Positions 4,180 through 24,530 of a DNA stretch of 64,000 nt are shown piece by piece. Every line of letters starts with the position of its first letter. Position 1 is the first letter of the stretch. This DNA is from Taklimakanibacter albus (lineage in GTDB: Bacteria; Pseudomonadota; Alphaproteobacteria; Rhizobiales; Aestuariivirgaceae): contig NZ_JAENHL010000007.1 of NCBI RefSeq assembly GCF_016595235.1, positions 960,419 through 1,024,418 on the forward strand, in the 5' to 3' direction. A program made the translations under genes and the position numbers. Under the pieces are notes generated by a model. The model made no database searches, was not told where the DNA came from, and saw only the letters and a program-made list of their open reading frames with translations.

Positions 4180-4204
4180 TCGAGTTCTCCATGATGAAAG
4201 GGGT

Positions 4205-5269: not shown

Positions 5270-5273
5270 GGCG

Positions 5274-6155: not shown

Positions 6156-6165
6156 GGGGCGATCC

Positions 6166-7979: not shown

Positions 7980-9413
7980 TCAGACGGTTTCGGGAATACG
8001 GGAGGCGGCGCTCTTGGGCGCCAGCCGGGCGGCGGCTTCGCGGCGCTTCACCGCCTCGATGTCGCGATATTGCGCGGCGGGATGCGGCGCCTGGAGATAA
8101 GGGCCTTCGCCGAAGAGTTTGTCGCGCAGCGTCCCGGGCCGGTAGGCCGTGGGATAGACGCCGCGCCGCTGCAATTCAGGGACGATAAATTCGACGATGT
8201 CCTCGAAGCTCTCGGGCGTCACCGCATAAGCGAGATTGAAGCCGTCGACATCGGTATCCTCGACCCATTCCTGCAGCGTATCGGCGACCTTCGTCGGCGA
8301 TCCGACGAAAACCGGGCCGAGACCGCCAATGCCGCCAAATTTCGCCAGCTCTTCGATAGACCAGGGCTTGTCGCGGCTGGAGAAATGCTCGACCATCGAA
8401 ATGATGGCATTCGTTTCGACCTTCTTGACGAGGTCGTCCGGTGCATATTGGCCGAAATCGATGCCGCTCCAGCCCGACATGAAGACGAGTGAACCGTCAT
8501 AAGAGAAATATTGCTTGTAGTCGTCGAATTTGGCTTGCGCCTTGGCGTCGGTCCCGTCGGTGACGATCGAGGCGAGGTTATAGATATAGAGCTTGCGTGG
8601 ATCCCGCCCCGCCTTCGCCGCGCGGCTGCGGATCTCGCTGACATAGGCCTTGAGCAGCGACTTGGTCGGCGCGGCGACGAAGATGCATTCGGCATGGGCG
8701 GCGGCGAATTCCTTGCCGGGCCCCGAGGCACCCGCCTGATAGAGAACGGGCGTGCGCTGCGGCGACGGCTCGGTCAGCTGATAGCCCGGGACGTCGAAGA
8801 ACTTGCCTTTGTGGCCGATCTCATGGACTTTCTCGGGATGTGTGAAGATGCGCTTCTGAGCATCGCGCACCACGGCCCCTTCTTCCCAGCTTCCTTCGAG
8901 CAGCTTGTAGAGCACCTCGACATATTCGGCGGCCACCTCATAACGGTCGTGGTGACGGCGCAGACCGCCTTCACCGATATTCTTCGCACCGCTTTCAAGA
9001 TAGGAGGTGACGATGTTCCAGCCGACGCGGCCTTTCGTGTGGTGGTCGGCGGTCGCGATCCGGCGCGCGAATGTGTAAGGATGCTCGAAGGACGTCGATG
9101 CGGTGATGCCGATGCCGAGATGTTCCGTCGCCAGCGCTATCGGAGCGGCGAGCTGGAGCGGATCATTGACGGGAATCTGCGCCGCCTGCTGGATCGCGTG
9201 GTAGTTCGAGCCCTTATAGACATCGTAGTAGCCGATGACGTCGGCGATGAAGATGCCGTCGAAAATACCCTTCTCGAGAGTCCGGGCAAGATCCTGCCAA
9301 TAATCGAGATCCTTGTATTTCCAGGACTTGTCGCGCGGATGTGCCCACAGGCCGGGCGACTGATGGCCGACACAATTCATGTCGAAGGCGTTGAAACGAA
9401 GTTGGCGGGTCAT
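7980..9413 (-). CDS. NtaA/DmoA/DszA-family FMN-dependent monooxygenase
   Basis: This 477-residue luciferase-like flavoprotein starts at ATG 9413, with AGGAGT upstream; the open frame extends 37 codons further but into non-coding promoter DNA. MTRQLRFNAFDMNCVGHQSPG and the GIGITASTSFEHPY, KGRVGWNIVTS and EPSPQRTPVLYQAG blocks place it in the NtaA/SnaA/DszA/DmoA group. DmoA cleaves dimethyl sulfide to methanethiol and formaldehyde; DszA acts on sulfones. As first gene of the operon that also encodes SfnG and a LIV-type importer, it probably removes carbon from a small organosulfur compound. It needs FMNH2 from a separate reductase. A copy of the island's 37-base element lies 53 bases upstream. 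Confidence 0.85.
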   Translation of the reverse strand: MTRQLRFNAFDMNCVGHQSPGLWAHPRDKSWKYKDLDYWQDLARTLEKGIFDGIFIADVIGYYDVYKGSNYHAIQQAAQIPVNDPLQLAAPIALATEHLGIGITASTSFEHPYTFARRIATADHHTKGRVGWNIVTSYLESGAKNIGEGGLRRHHDRYEVAAEYVEVLYKLLEGSWEEGAVVRDAQKRIFTHPEKVHEIGHKGKFFDVPGYQLTEPSPQRTPVLYQAGASGPGKEFAAAHAECIFVAAPTKSLLKAYVSEIRSRAAKAGRDPRKLYIYNLASIVTDGTDAKAQAKFDDYKQYFSYDGSLVFMSGWSGIDFGQYAPDDLVKKVETNAIISMVEHFSSRDKPWSIEELAKFGGIGGLGPVFVGSPTKVADTLQEWVEDTDVDGFNLAYAVTPESFEDIVEFIVPELQRRGVYPTAYRPGTLRDKLFGEGPYLQAPHPAAQYRDIEAVKRREAAARLAPKSAASRIPETV

Positions 9414-9587: not shown

Positions 9588-9947
9588 TCAGGCGGGTGAT
9601 GCGGAGCTCACCGGCTGTGCTTCCGTTTGCAGCCATTTGAGCCAGTCGGGGTCACCCGCGACGACCGGCCAGGCCTTGATGCCCGGCGTAACGTAGCTGT
9701 GCAGCTCGCGGACACGCTGGCTCAGCCTGGAAAAATTCTCCGGCAGTGTCTTCAGGAGCAAGGTCGTCTCGGCCTTCTCTCTCACCGCGCCATCCCACCA
9801 GAAGAAGGCGGTGATGCCGGGGACGATATTGGCCGCGCCCGCGAGCCGCTCCTCGACCAGAATGCGGCCGATCTTCAACGCCTCTTCCTGGCTCGGCACG
9901 CCAATCGACACTTCGAGGGCAAGGGGAGATTTTTCCGGTTTGCTCAT
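9588..9947 (-). CDS. CutA-family protein, sulfur-free variant
   Basis: This 119-residue cytoplasmic protein has the CutA1 trimer fold signatures: RILVEERLAGAANIVPG, a FFWWDGAVREKAET segment matching the YxWxGxxxxxxE strand, and LLLKT. ATG 9947 is preceded by AGAGGA; the frame opens 12 codons earlier without a better site. CutA was linked to divalent-cation tolerance, but its biochemical role is unsettled. The usual Cys of the conserved CVNI motif is Ala here (AANI), and the protein contains no Cys and no Met apart from the initiator. That parallels its sulfur-island neighbours. It lies between the promoter of the 9413 operon and the divergent cupin gene. Confidence 0.75.
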   Translation of the reverse strand: MSKPEKSPLALEVSIGVPSQEEALKIGRILVEERLAGAANIVPGITAFFWWDGAVREKAETTLLLKTLPENFSRLSQRVRELHSYVTPGIKAWPVVAGDPDWLKWLQTEAQPVSSASPA

Positions 9948-10091: not shown

Positions 10092-10724
10092 ATGCCTGAT
10101 CTCGCCTCGCTCGATCGCCATGTAGATGCCTGTCGACGCCTCATTCTCGATCGCCTCGATCGCGGCAGGGATGAACCGCCCGCAACGCGCCGGGAGATCG
10201 ATACGTTACTTGCACTGTCGAGCTCCGACGCGGGGCCGCTGTCGCCCGTTTCTCCCACCCGCCTCCCGGCTTGCGACTTCCTGCCTGACGCGCTGGCGCT
10301 TGGCGATCTGGGGCCCGAAGCGGACATAGCCCGAGCGCTGTCGGCAATCGCGCCGGCATTGCACTGGACCTATTCCTATCCTGATGATCCGCGCCTGAAC
10401 GGCCTCGCCTCGGCCATCGCCTTTACCCAGATCATAGGCCGGCAGGGCCTCAAGCGGGATAACGGGCTGCTGTTGGGCCTCACCCTCATGGCGCCGCACA
10501 CGATCTATCCGCTGCACGCCCACCCGGCGGTCGAGTTCTATCTCGTGATCGCAGGGACGGCTCTATGGCAAGCGGGGCACGAGCCGGCAATGGCACGTCC
10601 GCCCGGATCGCTGATCTTTCATCCAAGTGGTGTGGCCCACGCCATGACGACGGCGGCGGAGCCGCTACTCGCCGTCTTCACCTGGCATGGCGATATCATG
10701 TCGCCCTCGGTCTATCTGACGTGA
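10092..10724 (+). CDS. DMSP-lyase-like cupin protein
   Basis: This 210-residue protein has an N-terminal helical part and a C-terminal cupin barrel. The motif IYPLHAHPAVEFY (Y139, H142, H144, E148, Y150) and a later H183 reproduce the metal-binding and catalytic pattern of the DddQ/DddL/DddK family, which splits dimethylsulfoniopropionate into DMS and acrylate. I prefer ATG 10092, nine bases after GGAG, to GTG 10065. It is transcribed away from the CutA-like gene and runs toward the monooxygenase at 12102. A DMS-releasing enzyme would suit an island that also encodes DmoA- and SfnG-like enzymes. Many family members have untested function, so the substrate may differ. Confidence 0.65.
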   Translation: MPDLASLDRHVDACRRLILDRLDRGRDEPPATRREIDTLLALSSSDAGPLSPVSPTRLPACDFLPDALALGDLGPEADIARALSAIAPALHWTYSYPDDPRLNGLASAIAFTQIIGRQGLKRDNGLLLGLTLMAPHTIYPLHAHPAVEFYLVIAGTALWQAGHEPAMARPPGSLIFHPSGVAHAMTTAAEPLLAVFTWHGDIMSPSVYLT

Positions 10725-10743: not shown

Positions 10744-12102
10744 CTATTCGGCCGCACTCACTTTGATGTGCGACCGTGCAGCCGGCCGCGGCAGACCGAG
10801 ATTCTCACGCAGCGTGACGCCTTCATACTCGGTGCGGACAAGGCCCCGCTTCTGCAAATGCGGAACGACGAGGTTCACGAAATCGTCAAAGCCGCCCGGA
10901 AGATAGGGCGGCGCCACATTATAACCATCGCAGCCTTCATTCACGAACCAGTCTTCGAGCTGATCGGCGATATCTTCGGGCGTTCCCGAGACCAGCCGGT
11001 GGCCGCTTGTCATGGCGATGTTCAGATAGAGATCGCGGAGGGTCAGCTTCTCACGGCGTGCAACTTCCACCAGAAGCCGCTGCCGGCCCTTCGGTCCATT
11101 GGTGGGCGGCAGCTCCGGCAAAGGACCATCGAGGGGATGATGCGAAAGATCGAAGGCGCCGATCAGGCCGGAAAGAAAAGCCAGACCCGGCGCCGGATGG
11201 GTCAAGGATCTGAGCCGGGCTTCCTGCTCTTGTGCCTCGGCGCGGCTTCGGCCGATCACCGTCACCACGCCCGGCATGATGTTGAGAGAATCGGGTGACC
11301 GGTCGTATTTGACCATCCGCGCCTTGACGTCGGCATAATAAGCGCGTGCGTCGGGCAATGTCGGTTGCGCCGTGAACAGAACCTCGGCGGTCTCCGCGGC
11401 GAGCTCGCGGCCATCATCCGACAAGCCTGCCTGAACCATCACCGGATATCCTTGCGGCGGGCGCGGAATATTGAGCGGCCCCTTGACCGAGAAATACGTG
11501 CCGTGATGGTTGAGGATATTGAGCTTCGCCGGATCGAAATAGATGCCGGACTGCTGATCGAACAGGAAGGCGTCATCGCTCCAGCCGTCCCACAGGCCGG
11601 TCACCACCTCGACAAATTCGCGGGCGCGCTTGTAGCGGTCGGCATGGGCGAGATGGCGATCGAGATTGAAGTTCTGCGCCTCGGCCTCGGCCGCCGAGGT
11701 GACGAGGTTCCATCCGGCGCGGCCACCGGAAAGATGATCGAGCGAGGCGAATTTCCGGGCGACCGTATAGGGCTCGTTGTATGTCGTGCTGACGGTGGCG
11801 ACGAGGCCGACCCGCTTCGTCACCATCGCCAAAGCGGAGAGAAGCGTCAGGGGTTCGAACCGCGTGCTCCAGGCGGTGCGCGCCACGGCATCGATATTCT
11901 GATCCCAGATGACGGCCGCATCGGCGAGGAAAATGAAATCGAAGCCGCCGCGCTCCGCTGCCTGGGCCAGATCCACATGATGCTGCAGGCTTATGCCACC
12001 ATCGACCTGCGCCCCCGGATAGCGCCACCCCGCCACGTGATAGCCGACGGGATAGATCGAGGCACCGAGCTTCAATCGTTTCTTTCTATGTGTATTCGCC
12101 AT
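10744..12102 (-). CDS. NtaA/SnaA/DszA-family FMN-dependent monooxygenase
   Basis: This 452-residue luciferase-like flavoprotein has LGASIYPVGYHVAGWR at the N-terminus, then DFIFLADA, STTYNEPYTVARKFASLDHL, GGRAGWNLVTS and GYPVMVQAG, all typical of the NtaA/SnaA/DszA group. Such enzymes use FMNH2 and O2 to cleave C-N or C-S bonds. It is the last gene of the dipeptide-type importer operon, 14 bases after the second ATPase gene, so it probably acts on the imported compound. The Shine-Dalgarno sequence is weak. It is only moderately similar to the paralog at 7980, so the two should have different substrates. Confidence 0.85.
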   Translation of the reverse strand: MANTHRKKRLKLGASIYPVGYHVAGWRYPGAQVDGGISLQHHVDLAQAAERGGFDFIFLADAAVIWDQNIDAVARTAWSTRFEPLTLLSALAMVTKRVGLVATVSTTYNEPYTVARKFASLDHLSGGRAGWNLVTSAAEAEAQNFNLDRHLAHADRYKRAREFVEVVTGLWDGWSDDAFLFDQQSGIYFDPAKLNILNHHGTYFSVKGPLNIPRPPQGYPVMVQAGLSDDGRELAAETAEVLFTAQPTLPDARAYYADVKARMVKYDRSPDSLNIMPGVVTVIGRSRAEAQEQEARLRSLTHPAPGLAFLSGLIGAFDLSHHPLDGPLPELPPTNGPKGRQRLLVEVARREKLTLRDLYLNIAMTSGHRLVSGTPEDIADQLEDWFVNEGCDGYNVAPPYLPGGFDDFVNLVVPHLQKRGLVRTEYEGVTLRENLGLPRPAARSHIKVSAAE

Positions 12103-12116
12103 GATAATTCACCAGT

Positions 12117-13181
12117 TCAAGATTTCTGTGCGGCCGCGACCTGAAGCCTGGCGCCCGTGGCGGCCCGGCCCGTGATCCGATTGAGGTCGGACGCCTCGAG
12201 GTGACAGCGGATCGCGTGACCCGGCGCAACCTGGCGCCATGGTGGTTCGGCGCTTCGGCATAGACCGTCGATCCGGTGGCGGCATTGGCTGGCAAAGGCG
12301 CAGCCGGTTGTCGGTGGTGACGACGTCACTGCTGGACTTGCCGCGTCGCCCGCCGCTTCACGCCGCCGGCCGAATACCGGCACGGCCTCGAGCAGCAACG
12401 ACGTATAGGGATGATAGGGTGGAGCGAAAACGCGCTCCACCGGCCCCACCTCGCACAGATGCCCGCGATAGAGGACAGCGACGCGATCCGCGAACCAGCG
12501 GACCACCGCGAGATCGTGGGTGATGAACAGCATCGACAGGCGGGTTTGCGTCTGTATCGAACGCAGGAGCTCGAGGATGGTCGCCTGGGCCGACACGTCG
12601 AGCGCCGATACGATCTCGTCGCAGAGCAGCAGGGAGGGTCGCGCCGCGAGCGCCCGCGCGATCGCCACGCGCTGGCGCTCACCGCCGCTGATCTCGCTGG
12701 GGAAACGCTCGGCATAATCGGTGGGAAGCCGCACCGCCTCGAGAAGAGAGGCAACCTCCTGCCGGCTGTCCGCATCTGACAGGCCGAAGAACAGTCGCAA
12801 AGGCCGCGCGATGATGCTCCCGATACGATGGCGGCGATTGAGGGACGCGTCCGGATTCTGAAAAATGATCTGGATCAGACGCCGCAATTCGGCCGCACGC
12901 CGCTCGACCGGGAGCGTCAGGTCGTGACCGCCATAACGCAGGCGGCCCGCGGCTGCGGGAAAGAGGCCGGCAATGGTGCGGGCGATTGTCGATTTCCCAC
13001 TGCCGCTTTCACCGACGAGCGCCAGCGTCTCACCGGCGCCGACGGCAAAGGACACATCGTCGACCGCCGGAGGCGTCTTATTTCTTCTGCCGGAGAAGAG
13101 GTGCGGGCGTTCATAGCGGCAACTGAGATTGTCGATATGCAGTTGCGGCACGATCGCGGTGCTTCTGATCATCGCCGTCAT
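12117..13181 (-). CDS. Dipeptide/oligopeptide-type ABC transporter ATPase, DppF-like
   Basis: This 354-residue ATPase has a Walker A motif GESGSGKST near residue 57, the signature ISGGERQR and a Walker B LLLCDEIVSALD. Here the usual Pro after DE is replaced by Ile. Near the end GCAFASQCRHRIDGLC carries the cysteine cluster common in Opp/Dpp ATPases. It overlaps the DppD-like gene by four bases. Together with the genes up to 17446 it completes a five-gene importer. Confidence 0.9.
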   Translation of the reverse strand: MTAMIRSTAIVPQLHIDNLSCRYERPHLFSGRRNKTPPAVDDVSFAVGAGETLALVGESGSGKSTIARTIAGLFPAAAGRLRYGGHDLTLPVERRAAELRRLIQIIFQNPDASLNRRHRIGSIIARPLRLFFGLSDADSRQEVASLLEAVRLPTDYAERFPSEISGGERQRVAIARALAARPSLLLCDEIVSALDVSAQATILELLRSIQTQTRLSMLFITHDLAVVRWFADRVAVLYRGHLCEVGPVERVFAPPYHPYTSLLLEAVPVFGRRREAAGDAASPAVTSSPPTTGCAFASQCRHRIDGLCRSAEPPWRQVAPGHAIRCHLEASDLNRITGRAATGARLQVAAAQKS

Positions 13182-14041
13182 GCCGTAATTCTCTCCGGCG
13201 TCCTGCGGCTGGCGGGCAACAGGGCCGGATCGGGCGGCGCTTCCAGACGCGGGATCGAGGCCACAAGAGCCCGTGTATAGGGATGACGCGGCCGCAGCAG
13301 GACGTCCTCCATTTGGCCGATTTCGACGATTTCTCCCGCATGCATGATGGCGATGCGGTCGCAGATTTCGCTGAGTGTCGCCAGATCATGCGAGACATAG
13401 AGCATGCTCATCCGGCTCGACAGGCGCAGCCGGATCAGAAGGTCGATGATGCCGCGCCGTGTCATGGCGTCCTGCCCGGTCGTCGGCTCGTCGAGGATCA
13501 GGAGATCCGGCATGCGGCAGAGCGCCAGGGCCAGGGCGATACGCTGCTGCTGGCCGCCGCTGAACTGATGCGGAAAACGCGCCAATGCCCCGGTGGGATC
13601 CGGAAGGCCGACCTGGCTGAGCTGGCGCCGCGCCTCGGCGGCAAGCTCGGCCTTATTCATATGGGGCCGATGCGCCCGCAGGGTTTCCGCGAACAGGCTT
13701 CCGATCCGCAATGTCGGGGTGAGCGATGCACCGCCATTTTGCGGCACCAGCGCCAGCCTGACGCCGCGAAGCCGGCGAAGCTCCCGCGCCCGGAGGGTCG
13801 AAAGATCGATCCCGTCGAACTGCACCGATCCCGCCCGCAGGCGCCGCTCGCCACGTCTCTCGCCGAGCAGCACCGAGGCGAGTGTCGACTTGCCGCAACC
13901 GGATTCGCCCGCCAGCCCGAGTATTTCGCCGCGACGGACAGCCAGGCTGAGATCACGGATGACGGAATGCCACTGCCCTTGCTGGCGATAGTCGACCGTC
14001 AGCGACGCGACGGTCATCAGATCATGCGCAGCGGCCGTCAT
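13178..14041 (-). CDS. Dipeptide/oligopeptide-type ABC transporter ATPase, DppD-like
   Basis: This 287-residue ATPase has Walker A GESGCGKST, signature FSGGQQQR and Walker B LLILDEPTTGQD. It is about 40 residues shorter than typical DppD and lacks the C-terminal cysteine cluster; it ends soon after the RHPYTRALVASIP segment that normally precedes it. It overlaps both neighbours by four bases. It should pair with the DppF-like subunit. Confidence 0.88.
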   Translation of the reverse strand: MTAAAHDLMTVASLTVDYRQQGQWHSVIRDLSLAVRRGEILGLAGESGCGKSTLASVLLGERRGERRLRAGSVQFDGIDLSTLRARELRRLRGVRLALVPQNGGASLTPTLRIGSLFAETLRAHRPHMNKAELAAEARRQLSQVGLPDPTGALARFPHQFSGGQQQRIALALALCRMPDLLILDEPTTGQDAMTRRGIIDLLIRLRLSSRMSMLYVSHDLATLSEICDRIAIMHAGEIVEIGQMEDVLLRPRHPYTRALVASIPRLEAPPDPALLPASRRTPERITA

Positions 14042-14919
14042 CGGACACCTCCCTGTTCGGCCGGACCGAAAAGGCGATTGACGCCATCGGTGAAGAGATT
14101 GACGGCGGTCACCAGCATGGCCATGCCGGCGGCCGGCGCCGCGACCGGCCAGATCGAGGCATCGATCGTGCCGCGTCCTTCATTGACCATGAGCCCCCAA
14201 TCGGCAGTCGGCGGCTGGGCGCCGAAGCCGAGAAAGCCGAGCCCCCCGATGAACAGGATGGAATAACCGGTACGTATGGAAAACTCGACGATGAGCGTGC
14301 CGGTGACATTGGGCAGGAGCTCGCGCAGCACGATCGACAGACTGGTCTCGCCACGGGCCCGCGCGGCGGTGATGAAATCCTCCGATGCCACCGACTGCGT
14401 CGCCGCGCGGACGACACGGGCGACATTGGGCACCGAAAGCAGGCCGACCGTAACGGCGACGAGCGGCGCGCTGGCGCCCAGCGATCCGACAATGAGCAAA
14501 GCGAAGATGATGGAGGGAATGCTCATGATGATCTCGAGCATGCGCATGGCGACTTCATCGAGGACGCCGCCGCGATAACCGATGAACATGCCGAGCAGAC
14601 CGCCAATCGAAGCGGACAATCCGGCCGCCGCGCCACCCATCAGGAGAATGGTACGGCTGCCATATATGGTGCGACTGAGGACATCCCGTCCCAGGCTATC
14701 CGTTCCGAGAAGGAAGGCCGCGGATGGCGGCTCGAAGGGCGAACCGACGAAAATTTCGTTGGGCGGATAGGGCGCGATGGCCGGCGCCAGCATGGCGACC
14801 GCGGCATAGGCCAGGAGCACGAGGCCGGCGACTTTCGCGCTCACCGGCAAACGTTGCAGGGCAAAGCGGCGACCGGCCGGACGCGGCCGCGATTCAAGGA
14901 GCACGGAGAGGTCCGTCAT
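14038..14919 (-). CDS. Dipeptide-type ABC transporter permease, DppC-like
   Basis: This 293-residue inner-membrane protein has the DppC layout: a cytoplasmic N-terminus, a first membrane segment, a periplasmic FLLGTDSLGRDVLSR stretch and a permease domain with ARGETSLSIVLRELLPN, the loop that docks on the ATPase. The C-terminus has PTADWGLMVNEGR. It overlaps both adjacent genes by four bases. Confidence 0.92.
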   Translation of the reverse strand: MTDLSVLLESRPRPAGRRFALQRLPVSAKVAGLVLLAYAAVAMLAPAIAPYPPNEIFVGSPFEPPSAAFLLGTDSLGRDVLSRTIYGSRTILLMGGAAAGLSASIGGLLGMFIGYRGGVLDEVAMRMLEIIMSIPSIIFALLIVGSLGASAPLVAVTVGLLSVPNVARVVRAATQSVASEDFITAARARGETSLSIVLRELLPNVTGTLIVEFSIRTGYSILFIGGLGFLGFGAQPPTADWGLMVNEGRGTIDASIWPVAAPAAGMAMLVTAVNLFTDGVNRLFGPAEQGGVR

Positions 14920-15881
14920 GCCGTTCTGGTCCGCAGTTTCGGATTGAGCAGCAGCGTCGCGATATCGGCGACGAGATTGACGGCTATGTAGGCCGCGGAC
15001 AAAGCGAGCGCCGCGCCCTGTATCATCGGAACATCGTGAAATCGGATCGACTCGACCAGCAGCCGGCCGAGTCCCGGATAGTTGAACACGACTTCGACAA
15101 CGACGATGCCGCCGACCAGCCAGGAAGCATTGAGCGCGATGGCGTTGATGGCCGGTGAAAGCGCGTTGGGCAGCGCATGGACGAAGAGGACGCGCAGCGG
15201 CGATAGGCCGCGTAACGACGCCATGCGGACATAATCGGACTTGAGCACCTCGATCATCGAATTGCGCGTCTGGCGCACGACATAGGCGGTCATCGCGAAA
15301 TTGAGGGTGATCACCGGCAGAGCCAGCATATGGATCACGTCCCCAAACGACTTCGCCTGATCGATGAGCGCCAGCGGCGGAAAGAGCTGCAGGTCGTTGG
15401 CCAGCAGCATGATGAGAAAGATGCCGACGACGAATTCCGGGATCGACATGCCGATGAGCACCGCCGCCGACAGAGCGAGGTCGGATGCCCCATCGGGCCG
15501 CGCCGCGGCCAGCAGGCCAAGCCCGATGCTCAGCGGAATGTGAATGAGGAGCGCCAAGCCCCCGAGCAGCAGGGTGCGGCCAAGATAACCTGCGATGTAG
15601 GAAAACACCGGCCGGTCGGCCACCAGCGATCGCCCGAAATCACCCTGGACGATCCCGCCAAGCCAGCGGGCATAGCGCTCCGGCGCCGGATCCGACAGAC
15701 GCAGCTGCGTGCGCAAGGCCGCGAGCGACTCCTTCGTCGCCTCGCGGCCCAATATGCGCTCGGCCGTGTCGCCCGGCAGAAGTTCGACCGCCGAGAAGAC
15801 GATCAGCGACACGACGAAGAGCGACAAAACGGAGAGCGCCAGGCGAGTGACGATCAATCTCGGAATCGGAGCGACACGCAC
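14916..15881 (-). CDS. Dipeptide-type ABC transporter permease, DppB-like
   Basis: This 321-residue inner-membrane protein has a first membrane segment (LALSVLSLFVVSLIVFSAV), the DppB-typical LLPGDTAERILGREAT stretch, and further segments with VRQTRNSMIEVLKSDYVRMA and the ASLRGLSPLRVLFVHALPNA docking loop. It lies 17 bases after the binding-protein gene and overlaps the DppC-like gene. Confidence 0.92.
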   Translation of the reverse strand: MRVAPIPRLIVTRLALSVLSLFVVSLIVFSAVELLPGDTAERILGREATKESLAALRTQLRLSDPAPERYARWLGGIVQGDFGRSLVADRPVFSYIAGYLGRTLLLGGLALLIHIPLSIGLGLLAAARPDGASDLALSAAVLIGMSIPEFVVGIFLIMLLANDLQLFPPLALIDQAKSFGDVIHMLALPVITLNFAMTAYVVRQTRNSMIEVLKSDYVRMASLRGLSPLRVLFVHALPNALSPAINAIALNASWLVGGIVVVEVVFNYPGLGRLLVESIRFHDVPMIQGAALALSAAYIAVNLVADIATLLLNPKLRTRTA

Positions 15882-15898: not shown

Positions 15899-17446
15899 TC
15901 AATCGACAATCGTCACATCCACATAGCTCTGCGAGAGCTTCTGCGGATGCAGCTTCCAACCCCTCACATTGGCGCGCGTCGCGCCGATGGCGTCGGCGAA
16001 CAGGAGGATCAGCGCCCCGCCATCGTCGCGCACCAGCTCCTGCGCTTTCTGATAAAGCTCACCCCGCTTCTTCTCATCGATCGTACGGCGTGCCTCGAGA
16101 ATGAGCTTGTCGAACGCGTCATTGTGCCAATGGGTCTCATTCCATTCGGCATCGGAGAGGAACGGCCGGGCGAGCGCCGCGTCGGCTCCCTTTCCACTCC
16201 AGGCGGTGACGATGAACGGCTTCTTGAGCCAGATATTCGACCAGTAATCTTCGGCAGGCGCTTGATTGATCGAGATGCGGATGCCGGCGGCTTCGGCTTG
16301 CGCCTTGTAGGCGGTGGCGAGCTCGACAAGCCCGGATCCAGACGCGGACGTGTAAAGCTCGACATCGATGCCGTCCGGATAACCGGCCTCGGCCAACAGC
16401 TTCTTGGCTTGTTCGATATCCTGCTTGCGTGGCTCGTCCGGCAGGCCGAATTTGATCCAGGGCGCCACCGGCTGGTCATTGGCGACGGAACCATGGCCGC
16501 CCAGCACGGCTTTGAGCAGTTGATCGCGGTTGGCCGCCAGCTTGAGCGCGAGCCGGACCCGCGGATCATCGAAGGGCTTGGTATCCGTCCAAGCGGCAAG
16601 GCCGAGCCAGAAGGATGTCTTTGCCGTCTGCAGGACGATGTTCTTGTCCTGCTCGAGGCGTGTCAGACCGCGCAGCGGCAGATCCCAGAAGAGATCGACC
16701 TGTCCGGAAACGAGGGCGGCGATGCGGGCGGCCTCCTCCGGGATCGAGCGCAGCTCGACGCGATCGACACCCGGCTTGCCCGGCTGCCAATATTGGTCGT
16801 GGCGCACATAGGTGCTCGGCTCCTCACCCGGCACGAAGCGCTCGACCTTGAAGGCACCGGTACCGATGCCGGCGGTACGCACCTGCTCATTGGTCTGGCC
16901 GGCCTTGACGACCTTGTGGCTGTAAATGAGCTCGGGAAATTCGACGACCGGTTCGCGCAGCTTGAACTCGACCGTCAGGTCGTCGACGGCCTTGATATTC
17001 TCCGGATCGATCGGCGCGAGCCACGCGGCGGACGGCGACGGAGTCTTCGGATCGAACAGGCGGCGGAAGCTGAAGATGACATCGGTCGCCGTGAACGGAC
17101 TGCCGTCATGAAACTTGACGCCCGGACGCAGGTTGAAAGTCCATACGCTGCCATCGTCATTCGGCTTCCAGGCGGTCGCGAGGCTCGGCTGAACGGCGAA
17201 GGCCTCGTCGAGCTTGACCAGTCCCTCGAATACGAGTCCGGCCCGCGCGGCATCGGGATCATTGGTGCCATAGGCCGGGTCGAGCGTCCCCTTCACGCCA
17301 TCCGCCTCACCTGAGGCAATGCGAAGGGTTTTGATGCCGCCGGCAGCCTTGACCTGCTCGATGGGAAACAGCGCGCTGCCGCCAAGCACGGCGGCACCGG
17401 CAAGCAGAGTGCGGCGCGACACGCCGGTCCTGGTCTGATTTGTCAT
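15899..17446 (-). CDS. Dipeptide-type ABC transporter substrate-binding protein with Tat signal, free of sulfur amino acids
   Basis: This 515-residue SBP_bac_5 protein is probably exported by the twin-arginine route: GVSRRTLLAGAAVLGG lies at the N-terminus and a cleavage site near VKAAG. ATG 17446 has CCGGAGAC upstream; 46 further codons are open but run through the divergent promoter. The body has the family features NLRPGVKFHDGSPFTATDV and WSGKGAD. Apart from the initiator I find no Met and no Cys in the whole protein, although a few percent would be normal. That strongly suggests it is made abundantly when sulfur is scarce. It heads the operon ending in the 10744 monooxygenase. The ligand is unknown, probably a sulfur-containing peptide-like or other organosulfur compound. 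Confidence 0.9.
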   Translation of the reverse strand: MTNQTRTGVSRRTLLAGAAVLGGSALFPIEQVKAAGGIKTLRIASGEADGVKGTLDPAYGTNDPDAARAGLVFEGLVKLDEAFAVQPSLATAWKPNDDGSVWTFNLRPGVKFHDGSPFTATDVIFSFRRLFDPKTPSPSAAWLAPIDPENIKAVDDLTVEFKLREPVVEFPELIYSHKVVKAGQTNEQVRTAGIGTGAFKVERFVPGEEPSTYVRHDQYWQPGKPGVDRVELRSIPEEAARIAALVSGQVDLFWDLPLRGLTRLEQDKNIVLQTAKTSFWLGLAAWTDTKPFDDPRVRLALKLAANRDQLLKAVLGGHGSVANDQPVAPWIKFGLPDEPRKQDIEQAKKLLAEAGYPDGIDVELYTSASGSGLVELATAYKAQAEAAGIRISINQAPAEDYWSNIWLKKPFIVTAWSGKGADAALARPFLSDAEWNETHWHNDAFDKLILEARRTIDEKKRGELYQKAQELVRDDGGALILLFADAIGATRANVRGWKLHPQKLSQSYVDVTIVD

Positions 17447-17551: not shown

Positions 17552-17588
17552 AAACTGAGTAATTCTGCCGGCGAGGACAAACAAAACT
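17552..17588. promoter_or_regulatory. Copy A of the 37-base promoter element (degenerate palindrome)
   Basis: GAG at 17557 is followed eighteen bases later by GGACAAACAAAACT (17575-17588), the same spacing as in the other two copies. The AATT arms around GAG are imperfect here. It lies 106 bases upstream of the binding-protein start at 17446. Confidence 0.55.
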
Positions 17589-17613
17589 CACAGGCCCCGC
17601 GCCAAGGGGAGGA

Positions 17614-17738: not shown

Positions 17739-18251
17739 ATGACCATTGCCGTGAAGTCGCCGCAGGATTTCACCCATCATCCCACGACGCTGCGCGACGC
17801 GATGCGCCATCTTGCCGGCAGCGTCAGTGTCATCACCGCCGGCACCGGCGAGGACCGCACCGGCTTGACCGTCACTTCGGCGATTTCGCTTTCGGTCGAG
17901 CCGCCGACCATGATCGTCTGCGTCAATCGCGGCGCATCGTCCTGGCCGGTCATCCAGAAATACCGCCATTTCTGCGTGAACATCCTGGGCAGCACACATC
18001 GCGACGTCGCGGAACGTTTTTCCGGCCGCGGCGGCATCAAGGGGCCCGCCCGTTATGACGGCGCCTCCTGGAATACGCTCGTGACGCAAGCTTCCGTGCT
18101 TGAAGACGCCGTCGCCGCGATCGATTGCGCGGTGGAGGAATTCATCGAGCGCCACAGCCACGCGATCGTCATCGGCGCGGTCAAAGCCATCACCGTCAAG
18201 GGCGGCGCACCGCTGGTCTATGGCGGCGGCCGTTATGGCGGATTCATTTGA
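17739..18251 (+). CDS. Flavin reductase (HpaC/DIM6-NTAB type)
   Basis: This 170-residue protein belongs to the Flavin_Reduct domain family. Signatures are TLRDAMRHLAGSVSVITAG at the N-terminus, GLTVTSAISLSVEPPTMIVCVNR, and HAIVIGAVKAI before a C-terminal GGGRYGGF. It uses NAD(P)H to reduce free FMN or FAD. As first gene of the operon with an SfnB-like enzyme and SsuD, it very likely supplies FMNH2 to them and possibly to the other luciferase-like enzymes in the island. Its stop overlaps the Shine-Dalgarno sequence of the next gene. Confidence 0.88.
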   Translation: MTIAVKSPQDFTHHPTTLRDAMRHLAGSVSVITAGTGEDRTGLTVTSAISLSVEPPTMIVCVNRGASSWPVIQKYRHFCVNILGSTHRDVAERFSGRGGIKGPARYDGASWNTLVTQASVLEDAVAAIDCAVEEFIERHSHAIVIGAVKAITVKGGAPLVYGGGRYGGFI

Positions 18252-18265: not shown

Positions 18266-19504
18266 ATGACCGTACAACCCGCCAAAGCCATCGCCGCCTT
18301 TCCCGTGCCGAAACCGCGCGACAAGCATGCCCATGTCATCCGCACTGACAGCGAGGCGATCGAGATCGCCCATGACGTGGCGGCGATCCTGGCCGAAGGC
18401 GCCGCCGAGCGCGACCGCGAGCGCAAGCTTCCCTATGCCGAGATGGATCTCCTCTCTGACCGGGGCCTTCTCGCCATCACCGTGCCTAAAGAGTTCGGCG
18501 GCGCCGGCGTCGCCACCGGCACGCTGGCCGAGGTGATCGCCATCATTTCCGCCGCCGACGGATCGATCGGGCAGATTCCACAGAATCACTTCTTCATGCT
18601 GGAAGGCCTGCGGCTCCAGGGCTCGCCCGAGCAGAAGCAGTTCTTCTACAAGGCCGTGCTGGCGGGCGAGCGGCTCGGCAATGCGCTGTCCGAGATCGGC
18701 ACCAAGACGGCACAGGATCACGCCACCCGCATCACCCGCGACGGCGATGGCTTCCGCCTCAACGGCCGGAAGTTCTATTCCACTGGCGCCCTCTTCGCCC
18801 ATTGGATCGCGGTCATCGCGAATAATGACGACGGCAAAAGCACGCTCGCCATCGTGCCGCGCGAGACCGAAGGCATCACCATTATCGACGACTGGTCGGG
18901 CTTCGGCCAGCGCACCACCGGATCCGGCACGACCATTCTCGACAATGTCGCCGTTCATCCCTTCTCGGTCGTCCCCTTCCATCTTCTTTTCGAGACGCCC
19001 TCGTCGATGGGGCCGCATGCCCAGATCATGCATGCCGCCGTCGATCAGGGAATTGCGCGCGGCGCTTTTACCGAGGCCGTGCGTTTCGTGCGCCAATATA
19101 CGCGGCCGTGGAAGGAAAGCGGCCTCGAGCACGGCTATGAGGACCCGCATATCATCTCTGATATCGGCGAGGTGAAGATCAGGCTCGATGCCGCCGACGC
19201 ACTCCTCGGGCGCGCCGCGCGTTTCGTCGACGAGGCCACCGCCAACCCGACAGCCGAGACCGTCGCCGCCGCCTCGATCGCCGTGGCGTCGGCCAAGGTC
19301 GCCGCCACCGAAGTGTCGCTCCTCGCCGGCAGCAAGCTCATCGAACTCGGCGGCTCGCGCTCGACCCTCGCAGAATTCAATCTCGACCGCTACTGGCGCA
19401 ATGCCCGCACCCATACGGTGCATGACCCGGTGCGCTGGAAATACCGGGTCATCGGCAATTACTGGCTCAACGGCATCAATCCGCCGCGCCACGGCGCCAT
19501 CTGA
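18266..19504 (+). CDS. SfnB-family flavin-dependent oxidoreductase (sulfur acquisition)
   Basis: This 412-residue protein has the acyl-CoA dehydrogenase fold and the SfnB/DszC subgroup motifs [28 protein letters not shown] and [20 protein letters not shown] 18266 follows AGGAG by ten bases; the open frame upstream overlaps the flavin reductase. Members are induced by sulfate limitation and include DszC-like C-S oxidising monooxygenases; SfnB itself was found in the dimethyl-sulfone pathway. It lies between a flavin reductase and SsuD. It has four internal Met and no Cys. It closely resembles the convergent paralog at 20706. Confidence 0.85.
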   Translation: MTVQPAKAIAAFPVPKPRDKHAHVIRTDSEAIEIAHDVAAILAEGAAERDRERKLPYAEMDLLSDRGLLAITVPKEFGGAGVATGTLAEVIAIISAADGSIGQIPQNHFFMLEGLRLQGSPEQKQFFYKAVLAGERLGNALSEIGTKTAQDHATRITRDGDGFRLNGRKFYSTGALFAHWIAVIANNDDGKSTLAIVPRETEGITIIDDWSGFGQRTTGSGTTILDNVAVHPFSVVPFHLLFETPSSMGPHAQIMHAAVDQGIARGAFTEAVRFVRQYTRPWKESGLEHGYEDPHIISDIGEVKIRLDAADALLGRAARFVDEATANPTAETVAAASIAVASAKVAATEVSLLAGSKLIELGGSRSTLAEFNLDRYWRNARTHTVHDPVRWKYRVIGNYWLNGINPPRHGAI

Positions 19505-19515: not shown

Positions 19516-20709
19516 ATGACAGCCAAGCTCGACCTTCCCCCTTTGGCGCAGGCCGCCGATATCCTCTGGTTTCTGCCGACCCATGGCGACGGCCGTTATC
19601 TCGGCAGCGAGATCGGCGCCCGTCACGTCTCACTCTCCTATCTGAGCCAGATAGCGCGCGCCGCCGATGAGCTCGGCTATTATGGCGTGCTCCTGCCCAC
19701 CGGGCGCTCCTGCGAGGATTCCTGGGTCATCGCTTCGGCGATGGTGCCGCTCACACAACGCCTGCGTTATCTCGTGGCGGTGCGGCCCGGCATGACCGAG
19801 CCGGCTTTCGCCGCGCGCATGGCGGCGACGCTCGACCGCCTGTCCAACGGACGCCTGCTCATCAACGTGGTGACGGGCGGCGATCCCCTGGAGCTCAAGG
19901 GCGACGGCGTCTTCCTCGATCATGACGAGCGCTATGAAGTGACGGACGAGTTCCTCACCGTCTGGCGCCGCCTGCTGCAGGGCGAGGACGTCACCTTCAC
20001 CGGCAAGCACCTGAAGATCGAGAACGGCAAGCTCCTCTATCCGCCCGAGCAGAAGCCTTATCCGCCGCTCTATTTCGGTGGGTCCTCTGACGCCGGCAAC
20101 CAGGTGGCCGCCAATCACGTCGATGTCTATCTGACCTGGGGCGAGCCGCCGCAGGACGTCGCCAAGAAGCTCGCCAAGGCCAAAGCCCATGCGGCGGCCC
20201 GAGGGCGCAGCTTCTCTTATGGCATCCGCCTGCATGTCATCGTGCGCGAGACCTCGGCCGAGGCCTGGAAAGCCGCCGACGAGCTGATTTCCAAGCTCGA
20301 TGACGAAACGATCGCCACGGCGCAGAAGGCGTTTGCGCGCTTCGACTCAGTCGGCCAGCAGCGCATGTCGCAGCTCCATGGCGGGCGGCGCGACAAGCTC
20401 GAAGTGAGCCCTAATCTCTGGGCCGGCGTCGGCCTCGTGCGGGGCGGCGCCGGCACCGCTCTGGTCGGTAATCCGGACGAGGTCGCGGCCCGGATCAAGG
20501 GCTATATGGCACTCGGCATCGACCGTTTCATCCTCTCGGGCTATCCACATCTCGAGGAATGCTACCGCTTTGCCGAGCTGGTCTTCCCTAAGCTGCCGCT
20601 GAAAGCGACCACCGGCAATGATCTTGGCCCGGCCCGCAATGCAGGACCCTTCGGCGAGGTGATCGCCAATGTCGCTGCCCCGTCGCAGCGCAGGAGCGCC
20701 GCCGGCTAG
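19516..20709 (+). CDS. ssuD: FMNH2-dependent alkanesulfonate monooxygenase
   Basis: This 397-residue luciferase-like enzyme matches SsuD closely: [10 protein letters not shown] at the N-terminus, [14 protein letters not shown] with the conserved Cys (residue 66), [43 protein letters not shown] with the active-site Arg/His pair, and [10 protein letters not shown] with the conserved Tyr. SsuD converts alkanesulfonates to aldehyde and sulfite in the cytoplasm. It comes third after flavin reductase and SfnB; no ssuABC importer is present, so alkanesulfonates may enter through another system here. An N-terminal extension of about a dozen residues is present. Its stop codon shares CTAG with the converging gene. 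Confidence 0.93.
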
Positions 20710-21971
20710 ATCCAGGAATGGAGCGGCGGCTTGACGCCGTTCAGATAGAACTGCCCGATGGCGTGATATTTCCAGCGCACCGGGTCATGCAGCGTGTGCG
20801 TGCGGGCATCGCGCCAGATGCGGTCGAGATTGTGCCGGCCGAGCGTCGAGCGGGTGCCGGCAAGCTCGAACAGCTTGTTGGCGGCAAGGATGGCGATATC
20901 GGTGCTCAGCACCTTGGCCTCGGCGACGGCGATCTTGGCGAGCGCGATCGTCTCCTCGGTGGTCTCGGCAATGGTCGCGTCGAGCTGCCGGCCGGCCCGC
21001 TCGAGCAGGGCTTCCGCCGCATGGAGTCGGATTTTCAGGTCGCCGATCGCGGCGATCGTATAGGGATCCTCATGCGCATGTTCGCGGCCGCTGTCGATCC
21101 AGGGCCTGGCTTTCGTGCGCACGAAGTCGATAGCGAGCGCGATGGCACCCCGGCCGATGCCGGCGTCTATGGCGGCATGGATGAGCTGGCTCTGCGGCCC
21201 GACCGCGCTTTGCTGCTCATAGACGATATGTGCCGGCAGCACCCGCTCGGTCGGAATATGGACATTGTCGAGGGTGACCGTGCCGCTCGCGGTGGTGCGC
21301 TGGCCGAAGGCCGACCAGTCATTGACGACGGTGAGGCCTTTGCTCTCGCGATCGGCGATGGCGACGACCACGTGATTGTCCTCATCGAGCGCCACGATCG
21401 GCACCAGATGGGCGAAGAGCGCACCGGTCGAATAGAATTTCCGGCCGGACACGCTGTAGCCGGCGCTCGTCTTGACGATACGCGTCTCGAAGGTCTCGAC
21501 ATTCTTGCCGTGGAATTCCGAGAAGGCATTGCCGAGCCGCAAGCCCGACAGGATGGCGCCGAACAGCTCCCTCTTCTGCGCCTCGCTGCCAGTCGAGCGG
21601 ATGACGTCGACGATCTCGAAGTGATTCTGCGGGATCTGGGCGATCGAAGCGTCGGCCGCCGCCAGAATGGCGAAGACCTTGGCCAGCGTCGCTTGCGAGA
21701 CCTGGGCGCCGCCATAGGCCTTGGGGACAGTGATGCCCCACAGCCCGCTTTGCGAGAAGAGGTCGAGCTCCTCGATCGGCAGGCGGCGCTCGCGATCACG
21801 CTCCCCCGCTTCCTCGGCGAAGCGCACCGCGAGCTTTTCGGCGACATCGATCGCCTCCTCATCGCTTCTGATGCGATGCGCCGGCACGGCCGGGCGCGGC
21901 GCCGCGGCCGCCGCCTCCCCGGCGAAGACCGGGGCGACGGTGGCGAGCGGCTCGGAATGGACGAGTTTCAT
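20706..21971 (-). CDS. SfnB-family flavin-dependent oxidoreductase, sulfur-amino-acid-free paralog
   Basis: This 421-residue acyl-CoA-dehydrogenase-fold protein carries [27 protein letters not shown] and [17 protein letters not shown], almost the same motifs as the 18266 protein. It is the fourth gene after MetN, MetI and MetQ, 11 bases after the MetQ stop, so its substrate is likely what that importer delivers. Except for the initiator it has no Met and no Cys in 421 residues. The same-fold enzyme at 39434, outside the island, has 18 internal ones. The stop overlaps that of ssuD in a shared CTAG. Confidence 0.85.
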
Positions 21972-21982: not shown

Positions 21983-22801
21983 TCAGAACGCCGGATAGAT
22001 CTGGCCCTGGTAGCGCGTCTTGATGAACTCACGCGTCGCGTCGCTGTTGAGCGCCTTGGCGAGGATGGCGATCTCCGGCCGGTCCTTGTCCTCGGGCCGC
22101 GTGACCAGATATTCGCCCCAGATATTCTTGCCGTCCTGGCCGCGATCGATGAAAAGCGACTTGTTCACGTCGAGCTTGGCTTCAAGGACATAATTGCCGT
22201 TGAGGGCGGCGAGTTCCACTTGCGACAGCGCGCGGGGCAGCATCGCGGATTCGAGCTCGATGATCTTGAGATGCTTCGGATTTTCGACGATGTCCTTCTG
22301 CGTCGGCAGCGGATCTTCCGGTGTCTCGAGATCGGGCTTGCCATTGAGCTTGATGAGCCCGACCTTCTGCAGCAGCAGAAGCCCACGTCCGCCATTGACC
22401 GGGTCGTTGGGGATCGCCACCGTCGCCCCGTCGGCGATCTGGTCGACGGCGCTGATCTTGGTCGAATAGGCGACGAAAGGCTCGACATGCACCGGCACGA
22501 TCGGCACGAGATGGGTGCCGCGCTCGCGGTTGTAGTCGTTGAGGAAGGGCCGATACTGGAAATAATTGGCGTCGAGCTGCTTGGAGACGAGCTGGACATT
22601 GGGCTGGATGTAATCCGAGAACACCTTGATCTCGAGATCGAGGCCTTCCTTGGCGACGATCGGCTTCACGAATTCCAGGATCTCGGCATGGGGAACCGCG
22701 GTGGCGCCGACAACGAGCTTCTCGGCGGCCTGAGCCTGCACCACGCCGAACAGAAGCGCGGCTGTAACGGTGGTGGCAATAGTCTTGAACAGTTTCATCA
22801 T
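21983..22801 (-). CDS. metQ: MetQ-family ABC transporter substrate-binding protein
   Basis: This 272-residue protein of the NlpA/MetQ family has a signal peptide ending AQAAEK; there is no lipobox Cys, so it should be soluble in the periplasm. GATAVPHAEILE, SDYIQPNVQL, DANYFQ(Y)RPFL and IAIPNDPVNGGRGLLLLQ-like blocks are diagnostic. Two adjacent ATGs (22801, 22798) follow GAGAGGAC; the second has better spacing. The mature part has one Met and no Cys. Classic MetNIQ imports methionine, but coupling to an SfnB-like enzyme suggests an oxidised or alternative organosulfur ligand. Confidence 0.88.
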   Translation of the reverse strand: MMKLFKTIATTVTAALLFGVVQAQAAEKLVVGATAVPHAEILEFVKPIVAKEGLDLEIKVFSDYIQPNVQLVSKQLDANYFQYRPFLNDYNRERGTHLVPIVPVHVEPFVAYSTKISAVDQIADGATVAIPNDPVNGGRGLLLLQKVGLIKLNGKPDLETPEDPLPTQKDIVENPKHLKIIELESAMLPRALSQVELAALNGNYVLEAKLDVNKSLFIDRGQDGKNIWGEYLVTRPEDKDRPEIAILAKALNSDATREFIKTRYQGQIYPAF

Positions 22802-22821
22802 GTCCTCTCGGCGTGAAGTTG

Positions 22822-23490
22822 TCATTTGCGGGAAAAATGCGCGACGAGCCGGTTGCCCGACGCCTGCAGAAGCTGGACGAGCAGGATGAGGATGACGACC
22901 GTCACCACCATCACCTCGGTCTGGAATCGCTGATAGCCGTAGCGGATAGCGAGATCGCCGATGCCGCCACCGCCGATGGCGCCCGACATCGCGGTATAAT
23001 CGACGAGCACGATCGATGTGACGGTCACCGCGGCGATGAGGCCGGGCAGCGCTTCCGGCAGCAGAGCGCGGAAGACGATCTGGAAGGTCGAGCCGCCCAT
23101 GGCCTGCGAGGCCTCGATGATGCCGCGATCGACCTCACGCAGCGCCGCCTCGACCAGGCGCGCGAAGAAGGGCGCGGTGCCGAAGACCAGAGGCGGGATG
23201 ACGCCGCGGACGCCAAGCGAAGTGCCGGTCAACAGCACCGTCACCGGCATCAACATGATGAGGAGGATGATGAACGGCACCGAGCGCAGGATGTTGAGAA
23301 CGAAGGACAGGATCCCGTAGAAGACCGGCTGCTGCAGCATCTGCTGGCGACCGGTGAGGAAGAGCAGGATGCCGAGCGGCAAGCCAAAGAGAATGGTGAA
23401 GCCGAGCGCGCCGCCGAGCATCGACAGCGTGTCGATGGCGGCGATTCCGATATCTCCCCAATCAATGGCGTCAAAGGACATCGCCGTCAC
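22822..23490 (-). CDS. metI: MetI-family ABC transporter permease
   Basis: This 222-residue inner-membrane protein has five predicted segments and the MetI pattern: NILRSVPFIILLIMLMP, a long loop with FARLVEAALREVDRGIIEASQAMG that contacts the ATPase, and SGAIGGGGIGDLAIRYGYQRF at the end of the domain. It overlaps the MetN stop by four bases and precedes metQ. Confidence 0.92.
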   Translation of the reverse strand: MTAMSFDAIDWGDIGIAAIDTLSMLGGALGFTILFGLPLGILLFLTGRQQMLQQPVFYGILSFVLNILRSVPFIILLIMLMPVTVLLTGTSLGVRGVIPPLVFGTAPFFARLVEAALREVDRGIIEASQAMGGSTFQIVFRALLPEALPGLIAAVTVTSIVLVDYTAMSGAIGGGGIGDLAIRYGYQRFQTEVMVVTVVILILLVQLLQASGNRLVAHFSRK

Positions 23491-24530
23491 CCATTGACCG
23501 CGCGCGGGGTGACACTCAAGGCGCCGTCGCTCAGCCTTTCGGCGACGACACCTGCTGCCTGCAGCCGGTTGACGGCGCCGAAGGCGCTGCCGCCGACCAG
23601 AGCCACCGTCAGCTGGGCGAAAGGCAGGTTTCTGATATGGCCGACGCGGCCGGCCAGGATGCTGTAATCCACCCCGAATTCACGCGCCGTGGCGCCGAGG
23701 ATCGGCCTTTGCGTATCGTCGCCGAGAAAGGTGAAGCGATAGACGGGACCGGGAGCTTGCGCCAGGTCGAGACCGTTCTCAGCCTCATCGCCTTCCGACT
23801 CGCGCACGAGTCTCAGCGTCGCGGGGTGACGCGGATGCAGAAAGACCTCTTCGACGGCACCCTTTTCGACGATCCGGCCGCCATCGAGGACGGCGACCCG
23901 GTCGCAGATGCGGCGTACCACATCCATCTCATGGGTGATGAGAATGATAGTGATGCCGATGTCACGGTTGATCTCGGACAGCAGGCGCAGCACCGATTGC
24001 GTGGTCTGCGGATCGAGCGCGCTGGTCGCCTCGTCGCTGAGCAGGATCTTTGGCCTGCCCGCCAGCGCGCGGGCGATGCCGACCCGCTGCTTCTGGCCGC
24101 CTGACAGCTGACGCGGATATTTGTTCGCATGATCGAGAAGCCCGACCCGTTCGAGCAGTTCCTGGACCCGGGCTTTGATCTGCGGGCGCGCAAGCTCGCC
24201 CGCGAGCTCAAGCGGAAAGGCGATGTTCTGGGCAACAGTCTTGGCGTTGAGCAGGTTGAAATGCTGAAACACCATGCCGATGTCACGGCGCAGTGCCCGG
24301 AGTTCCTTGCCGTTTGCGGCGGCCGTCGCCCGGCCATCGACCTGGATTTCACCGCTACTCGGGCTTTCGAGCAGATTGATGAGACGGACCAGGGTCGATT
24401 TACCGGCGCCCGATGCGCCGATGATGCCGAATATCTCGCCTTTGACGATATCGAGATCGATATCGGCCAAAGCGCGCACATTTCGTTCCGCGGCCGGATA
24501 GGCCTTGGAGATATTTCTGAGACTGATCAT
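23487..24530 (-). CDS. metN: MetN-family ABC transporter ATPase with C-terminal NIL domain
   Basis: This 347-residue ATPase has Walker A GASGAGKST near residue 36, signature LSGGQKQR, Walker B ILLSDEATSALDP and the H-loop ITHEMDV. A C-terminal NIL domain (about residues 265-345) follows; in E. coli it binds methionine and inhibits transport. ATG 24530 has AGAGG upstream; a much longer open frame runs antisense through the LysR gene and is not coding. Only three Met/Cys occur beyond the start. The gene lies 67 bases downstream of the LysR gene on the same strand. Confidence 0.92.
   Translation of the reverse strand: MISLRNISKAYPAAERNVRALADIDLDIVKGEIFGIIGASGAGKSTLVRLINLLESPSSGEIQVDGRATAAANGKELRALRRDIGMVFQHFNLLNAKTVAQNIAFPLELAGELARPQIKARVQELLERVGLLDHANKYPRQLSGGQKQRVGIARALAGRPKILLSDEATSALDPQTTQSVLRLLSEINRDIGITIILITHEMDVVRRICDRVAVLDGGRIVEKGAVEEVFLHPRHPATLRLVRESEGDEAENGLDLAQAPGPVYRFTFLGDDTQRPILGATAREFGVDYSILAGRVGHIRNLPFAQLTVALVGGSAFGAVNRLQAAGVVAERLSDGALSVTPRAVNG

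Follow-up and report, generated by a model that had tools for sequence, protein, structure and literature searches.

The sparing of sulfur in proteins is a long-known principle, and a passage in PMC5513900 credits element economy to Mazel and Marliere 1989 and Baudouin-Cornu 2001. In Escherichia coli K-12, TauA, Sbp, SsuE, TauD and SsuA contain zero or few Met and Cys residues: beyond the start, 0 of 320 are found in TauA, 0 of 191 in SsuE and 1 of 283 in TauD, and Sbp has neither residue after residue 30. The permeases and ATPases of these sulfur systems have a Met+Cys content of 1.6 to 4.1%, and GsiB, the family-5 protein for glutathione, contains 11 such residues. For sulfate-starved Rhodococcus qingshengii IGTS8, the section on the sparing response in PMC8557817 describes SfnG, TauD, AtsA, MetY and Dsz proteins that contain few Cys and Met residues or none, and the abundance of which was measured by proteomics. 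In Acinetobacter baylyi, as laid out in an excerpt of PMC13352529, acyl-CoA-dehydrogenase-fold monooxygenases convert DMS to DMSO and then to dimethylsulfone, from which SfnG, MsuC and MsuD/SsuD lead to sulfite. Finally, the marine-bacterial DMSP importer DmpXWV, as presented in an excerpt of PMC10030565, is an ABC importer for an organosulfur compound that comprises three genes and has a ProX/ChoX-like binding protein.

The locus described here lies in a 64,000-nucleotide stretch of the Taklimakanibacter albus genome, referred to as the window, and shares features with each of these systems. Similar to the E. coli proteins, several of its binding proteins and enzymes contain zero or few Met and Cys, whereas the sulfate-starvation binding proteins of E. 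coli have other folds and 320 to 329 aa and that of the window is a 515-aa Opp/Dpp-type protein. In likeness to the A. baylyi pathway, the window contains two SfnB genes, SfnG, SsuD, a DszC/MsuC-like gene and flavin reductases, which provide family-level candidates for each DMS-to-sulfite step. Unlike that pathway, it adds three importers and a DMSP-lyase-like cupin, and SfnB is likened to Dms1-3 by family only. The importer of the window is an ABC system, as is DmpXWV, although it is of the Opp/Dpp type and its ligand is putative. Rhodococcus is an actinobacterium, whereas the window is alphaproteobacterial; ortholog and simulation tests are absent from the section on the sparing response in PMC8557817, and the name SfnB occurs 0 times in that paper. 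Given the precedents of E. coli TauA, SsuE and Sbp (after residue 30) and of Rhodococcus, the principle itself is not new, and the complete absence, which the first-pass annotation of this DNA called striking, is not without precedent. The binding protein is a further case that is unusually complete.

The binding-protein gene occupies 15899..17446 on the minus strand, with an ATG at 17446 and a stop codon that ends at 15899; the plus-strand reading of this interval is ruled out by a stop inside it. Its 515-residue product matches PF00496 with 299.9 bits and contains one Met, the start, and no Cys, exactly as first annotated. At the genome-average Met+Cys content of 2.92%, taken from 675 genes that were called across 39 stretches of 20 kb each, about 15 such residues would be expected, in keeping with the initial estimate of well over ten. 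A GGAG is located six bases 5′ of the ATG, the start is directly followed by SRRTLLAGA, which we take to be a twin-arginine-type (Tat-type) signal motif that predicts export, and the orthologs L066 and L068 start at about the same place. Based on these three features the ATG start looks sound, and the caveat that a longer real start might add Met is unlikely to apply. The alternative TTG-started frame, of 561 aa, would contribute 46 aa and three Met. With the putative signal removed, the mature protein would therefore contain no sulfur. The PF00496 domain is accompanied by permeases and ATPases of its own, consistent with family 5. Scores against individual NCBIfam members remain below the cut-offs for DppA (125.2 bits, cut-off 1005), GsiB (150.4 bits, cut-off 594), OppA (131.1 bits, cut-off 947) and NikA (138.6 bits, cut-off 393); because the DppA cut-off is missed, the name DppA does not fit.

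The 7.17-Mb host genome contains 50 PF00496 matches. Met and Cys were counted from the start of the domain to the stop codon, a 431-aa part in the binding protein, and the count is thus independent of the chosen start codon. The first-pass annotation had proposed such a count over the binding proteins of the genome. The protein at 15899-17446 has 0 Met+Cys and is the sole one of the 50 without both residues, as compared with 3 to 19 (median 11) in the other 49 paralogs. As Met is absent in 0 of these 49 and Cys in 12, the absence of Met is the telling half of the observation. If the 431 aa followed the rate seen in these paralogs, 9.9 Met+Cys residues would be expected, and the probability of zero is 4.5e-5. 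Among 450 background proteins of at least 250 aa, zero is found once, in a 252-aa putative gene call. The binding protein also has the lowest Tyr content of the 50 paralogs, a low Asn content and the second highest Trp content; its composition is therefore odd beyond sulfur.

Judged by its gene families, the region from 0.9 to 25.6 kb is an organosulfur-acquisition cluster, with SfnG, two SfnB, SsuD, two NtaA/DmoA-type monooxygenases, a cupin and three ABC importers. On the minus strand, the binding-protein gene is followed by two permease genes (14038..15857; dppB-like 14916-15857 and dppC-like 14038-14919; PF00528), whose products contain 7 and 9 Met+Cys, and two ATPase genes (12117..14041; dppD-like 13178-14041 and dppF-like 12117-13181; PF00005 and PF08352), with 11 and 9. 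The last gene of this importer operon encodes an NtaA/DmoA-subfamily flavin monooxygenase (10744..12102, minus strand; TIGR03860, 565 bits, cut-off 279.7). The DMSP-lyase-like cupin gene (10092..10724, plus strand; PF16867, 114.9 bits) is convergent with the operon. Farther to the left, all on the minus strand, are genes for a CutA1-like protein of 119 aa without Met or Cys after the start (9588..9947; PF03091), a second NtaA/DmoA-subfamily monooxygenase (7980..9413; TIGR03860, 526.8 bits; Met+Cys 5 of 477), a protein with a partial AMP-binding domain (6933..7970; PF00501, 39.4 bits; 1 in 345 aa) and no NCBIfam match, and a branched-chain-type ABC importer (2830..6936) composed of an ATPase, two permeases and a Peripla_BP_6 binding protein (2830-4179; 3 of 449). 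These are followed by the dimethylsulfone monooxygenase SfnG (1696..2745; TIGR04021, 519.3 bits, cut-off 382.95) and a further ATPase of the branched-chain type (920..1699; PF00005; 3 of 259). The DszC/MsuC-like monooxygenase gene (1..888, minus strand; PF02771) runs off the left window edge, and its 296 codons include none for Met or Cys after the start; just beyond the edge, the genome sequence turns to N, as in masked DNA or a gap.

To the right of the binding protein, the plus strand encodes a flavin reductase (17739..18251; PF01613), the second copy of SfnB (18266..19504; TIGR04022, 619.3 bits, cut-off 430.9; Met+Cys 4 in 412) and the alkanesulfonate monooxygenase SsuD (19516..20709; TIGR03565, 628.3 bits, cut-off 518.2; 7 in 397). 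On the minus strand, the first copy of SfnB (20706..21971; TIGR04022, 615.2 bits, cut-off 430.9) has 421 aa and neither Met nor Cys after the start. It is followed by a MetQ/MetI/MetN-like importer (21983..24530), the binding protein of which (21983-22798) contains 1 Met+Cys in 271, and by a LysR-type regulator (24598..25557; PF00126, PF03466; 3 in 319) at the right end of the cluster.

The binding protein is not a lone oddity, and the depletion belongs to its neighborhood. Across the cluster (24 genes, 7857 aa) Met+Cys amounts to 1.40%, versus 2.94% in the 36 other genes of the window, which lie to the right. Relative to background, Met is present at 0.50x and Cys at 0.42x, and the other 18 amino acids range from 0.88x to 1.11x. 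A content of 0.5% or less is observed in 4 of the 20 cluster proteins of at least 250 aa as compared with 4 of 450 in the background, and with genes treated as independent the depletion has a Mann-Whitney p of 4e-8. The four lowest are the binding protein, SfnB (0 of 421), the AMP-binding-domain protein (1 of 345) and the MetQ-like protein (1 of 271). The permeases and ATPases of the importer operon have 2.2 to 3.8%. One of the 39 background stretches, L096, falls below the cluster with 1.24%, and contains three proteins of 1014 to 1569 aa. The equally depleted neighboring enzymes, one of them at zero, had been missed in the first-pass annotation. Outside the sulfur cluster, a family-3 amino-acid-type ABC importer at 46206-48404 has 0.92, 1.32 and 1.72% Met+Cys. 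The cobalamin-independent methionine synthase MetE (L106:3957-6278), which is encoded about 13 kb to the left of the window, has an ordinary content of 2.72%.

At E <= 1e-120, an ortholog of the binding protein was detected in 8 of the 397 genomes sampled from the order; this number includes the host genome, and the other orthologs have identities of 49 to 63%. The class sample (385 genomes) and the phylum sample (398 genomes, E <= 1e-100) yielded none apart from the host genome itself. A plasmid search returned only relatives below 60% identity (45 records), five of which were used as outgroups. A scan of genome contigs added one relative, L051, and L072, being the same record, was left out. 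For L067, the ATG that fits the other orthologs was used; the automatic start further upstream would add 2 residues. The sequences of the window, L066, L067, L068 and L069 form one clade with a support of 100/100 that spans four taxonomic families. Its members have 0, 0, 0, 0 and 1 Met+Cys beyond the start, and the single residue is located in the signal region. In contrast, the sister sequences L070, L071 and L073 contain 10, 7 and 9, and the counts in the ten sequences of the outgroup, of which two are truncated by contig ends, range from 11 to 20. Among these sequences, the near-complete absence is thus limited to one ortholog clade, in a contrast with its sisters that is based on few sequences. 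In the 14 columns in which L070, L071 or L073 carries Met or Cys, the clade shows Leu in 31 of 70 cells, and given how widely these residues are shared, 10 of the 14 columns are probably ancestral.

Evolution from a sulfur-free ancestor, with the sequence of the window as the root, was simulated under three models in 500 runs each. The simulated Met+Cys totals for the five tips have means of 23, 33 and 20 and minima of 7, 11 and 8. The observed total is 1, which indicates that the sulfur-free state has been kept rather than merely inherited.

Gene context follows the same division. A monooxygenase gene is present 3′ of dppF in the window, L067, L068 and L069, that is, in four of the five clade members; the contig of L066 ends early, and linkage therefore cannot be judged there. 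No monooxygenase is found in the operons of L070, L071 and L073. The initial suggestion to compare homologs with and without the linked monooxygenase is thereby borne out for the clade (0 or 1) and its sisters. It fails for L051 (Pleomorphomonas), which has 1 or 2 Met+Cys depending on the choice of start, no monooxygenase or dpp permeases among the genes called within 10 kb, and hydantoinase-like and amino-acid-oxidase-like genes as neighbors. The related concern that homologs in non-sulfur contexts might show the same absence is answered in part by the 7 to 10 residues of the sisters, but the contexts of L070 and L071, both beside a GcvT-like demethylase gene, are not cleanly non-sulfur and L051 is nearly free. 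About 2.9 kb past the last shown operon gene of L070 lies a methionine gamma-lyase gene (TIGR01328, 572.2 bits, cut-off 549.7), and the contrast is therefore one between operons with and without the monooxygenase rather than between sulfur and non-sulfur settings. At a distance of some 5 to 8 kb, the L071 gene has Met/Cys-poor neighbors, namely MetNIQ-like genes (1 to 6 Met+Cys each) and a monooxygenase gene (4 of 449). Both neighborhoods speak against a strict rule, as L070 and L071 carry 10 and 7 such residues all the same. In addition, the Met/Cys-free ortholog L066 stands beside genes (L066:1002-8711) whose products have 1 Met+Cys of 323, 1 of 655 and 2 of 343. The 655-aa protein matches D-apionate lactonase with 563.8 bits, below the cut-off of 750, and by such resemblance these look like sugar genes, perhaps for D-apionate, rather than sulfur genes. 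The trait is thus possibly not limited to sulfur genes.

The absence of Met and Cys recurs in SfnB, which has an unrelated fold. A search at E <= 1e-100 in 297 sampled genomes of the order gave matches in 28 genomes at 44 places, and 30 loci were fetched (L126 to L155). From domain start to stop, SfnB (TIGR04022) is Met/Cys-free in 21 of these 30 loci, with a maximum of 7, at pairwise identities of 41 to 97% (median 58%). When SfnB evolution was simulated in 300 runs that used the amino acid composition of the host's ordinary acyl-CoA dehydrogenases (4.51% Met+Cys), the mean total was 272, the minimum 151, and at most 1 sequence was free, as compared with an observed total of 26 and 21 free sequences. 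In the phylum sample, which includes L190, a sequence below the family cut-off, 7 of 20 readable new loci are Met/Cys-free and the rest have 1 to 3; a twenty-first locus, L180, was left out. The 13 ordinary acyl-CoA dehydrogenases of the host genome contain 3.45 to 5.56% Met+Cys. No statement of Met/Cys absence in SfnB was encountered in searches of an open-access library. A second, unlinked sulfur locus of the host genome, L200 (G000:C8:1385000-1404900), which includes MetNIQ-like genes, repeats the depletion pattern in part. Its poor products are a MetQ-like protein (1 of 267), SfnB (1 of 406), an SsuD-like protein (3 of 358) and a 2OG oxygenase (2 of 351); less poor are the enzymes that resemble DmoA (10 of 462) and DszC (6 of 401). 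The intervening genes are mostly ordinary (1.6 to 4.5%), save for an outer-membrane protein with 1 of 240.

A repeated element was observed in the promoters of the cluster. The divergent promoter region from which the importer operon is read contains two exact copies of the sequence GGACAAACAAAACT, at 17575-17590 and 17637-17652 (plus strand), with a spacing of 62 bases. A copy with one mismatch is located at 9489-9504, 76 bases 5′ of the second monooxygenase gene, and a further similar match lies in the promoter region at 10025-10040. With up to three mismatches, the 16-base form has 4 matches in the window versus 0.21 expected, a number that 0 of 100 shuffles reached. With up to two mismatches, it was found neither in 780 kb of background nor in L200 or the ortholog loci. 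These repeats are a candidate regulator site. When the divergent region was scanned for promoters and terminators, no signal exceeded the chance level, and a PADLOC scan gave no match.

Taken together, the data are best explained by a maintained sparing of sulfur in starvation proteins, with an importer that brings organosulfur in when sulfate is scarce, a reading that we consider likely. The exported binding protein of the Opp/Dpp-type importer would capture an organosulfur compound under sulfate scarcity, and the linked flavin monooxygenases would then release its sulfur. The binding protein would be abundant and induced by sulfur starvation, and thus needed in bulk exactly when Met and Cys are scarce, so that selection would have removed both residues and excluded them since. 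The same pressure would act on the soluble enzymes and the other binding proteins of the cluster, and more weakly on permeases and ATPases. The sulfur-scavenging role proposed at first is strengthened by the organosulfur cluster, the extreme position among the paralogs and the clade with its monooxygenase, but composition alone cannot name the substrate. Candidates would be a methylated sulfonium compound such as DMSP, an S-alkylated cysteine or a small sulfur peptide. The operon monooxygenase (10744-12102) belongs to subfamily TIGR03860 but is not assignable to DmoA itself, as its nearest relatives of solved structure, 7e36, YtnJ and MoxC, match it better than the solved DMS monooxygenase 6ak1. 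The likeness to YtnJ and MoxC would presumably fit an S-alkylated cysteine. The cupin at 10092-10724 can be aligned with solved DMSP lyases, and its HxH, E, Y and later H match those of 5cu1, which we take to be metal ligands; its domain (PF16867) and these residues thus agree with a DMSP lyase, and DMSP cleavage is predicted.

It is possible, though we think it unlikely, that the depletion does reflect sulfur sparing while the importer is merely co-regulated and carries a peptide or a sulfur-free methylated compound. Peptides are common ligands of family 5, the solved structures nearest to the binding protein include GsiB, DppA, OppA and heme-binding proteins, and the relatives L083 and L085 adjoin metallo-hydrolases and peptidases. 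GcvT-like genes directly follow the importer ATPases in L070 (L070:14957-16147) and L071 (L071:4577-5770), and their products reach 260 and 271 bits with trimethylamine N-oxide demethylase (cut-off 1100) and 195 and 185 bits with DMSP demethylase (cut-off 410); GcvT also scores above DMSP demethylase, all below cut-off. From these scores, one may fairly guess that the wider importer family has a methylated sulfonium or ammonium compound as its ligand. Against such a cargo, a sulfur-type monooxygenase ends the operon in all four members of the free clade that can be judged. Moreover, a DMSP-lyase-family cupin adjoins the operon in the window, L067 and L068, and the same family is found within related operons of plasmids from Sinorhizobium and Ensifer.

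Organosulfur import with sulfur sparing may also be set against a rather improbable alternative, namely that Met and Cys were lost as oxidation-prone residues under peroxide leak from reduced-flavin monooxygenases and the oxidative stress of sulfur starvation, with sulfur economy as a side effect. Met and Cys are prime targets of oxidation, and the low Tyr content of the binding protein would agree with such a loss. The oxidisable Trp, however, is close to its highest level among the 50 paralogs, and in the cluster as a whole the levels of Tyr (0.98x), Trp (1.09x) and His (1.05x) do not change. Antioxidant genes of Pseudomonas aeruginosa are induced by sulfur starvation, according to an excerpt of PMC12581299, but in E. 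coli both SsuE and TauA, the binding protein of a dioxygenase pathway, are equally free of Met and Cys. The depletion can hardly be due to chance, G+C bias or drift: although 4 of 450 background proteins also reach 0.5% or less, zero is too rare at the paralog rate, the controls share the G+C content of the genome, the clade has stayed free although simulations predict 20 to 33 residues, and the unrelated SfnB fold shows the same absence.

Beyond this locus, we lean modestly toward the view that unrelated folds, namely the Opp/Dpp-type clade, SfnB and the MetQ-like proteins, have been held near zero sulfur over the long term, that SfnB is a nearly sulfur-free family, and that Met+Cys content could report a function in sulfur starvation. 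The less expected result is that many members of the SfnB enzyme family can do without Met and Cys after the start residue. In the binding protein, selection on element cost could be studied under control, with same-genome paralogs, sister orthologs and an unlinked second locus for comparison. If this view is true, a low Met+Cys content could flag sulfur-starvation genes such as that for the AMP-binding-domain protein at 6933-7970; the D-apionate-lactonase-like protein of L066 would then be another example, or else a sign that such a reporter is unspecific. Sulfur-scavenging genes that have gone unrecognised might thus be sought across whole genomes at little cost.
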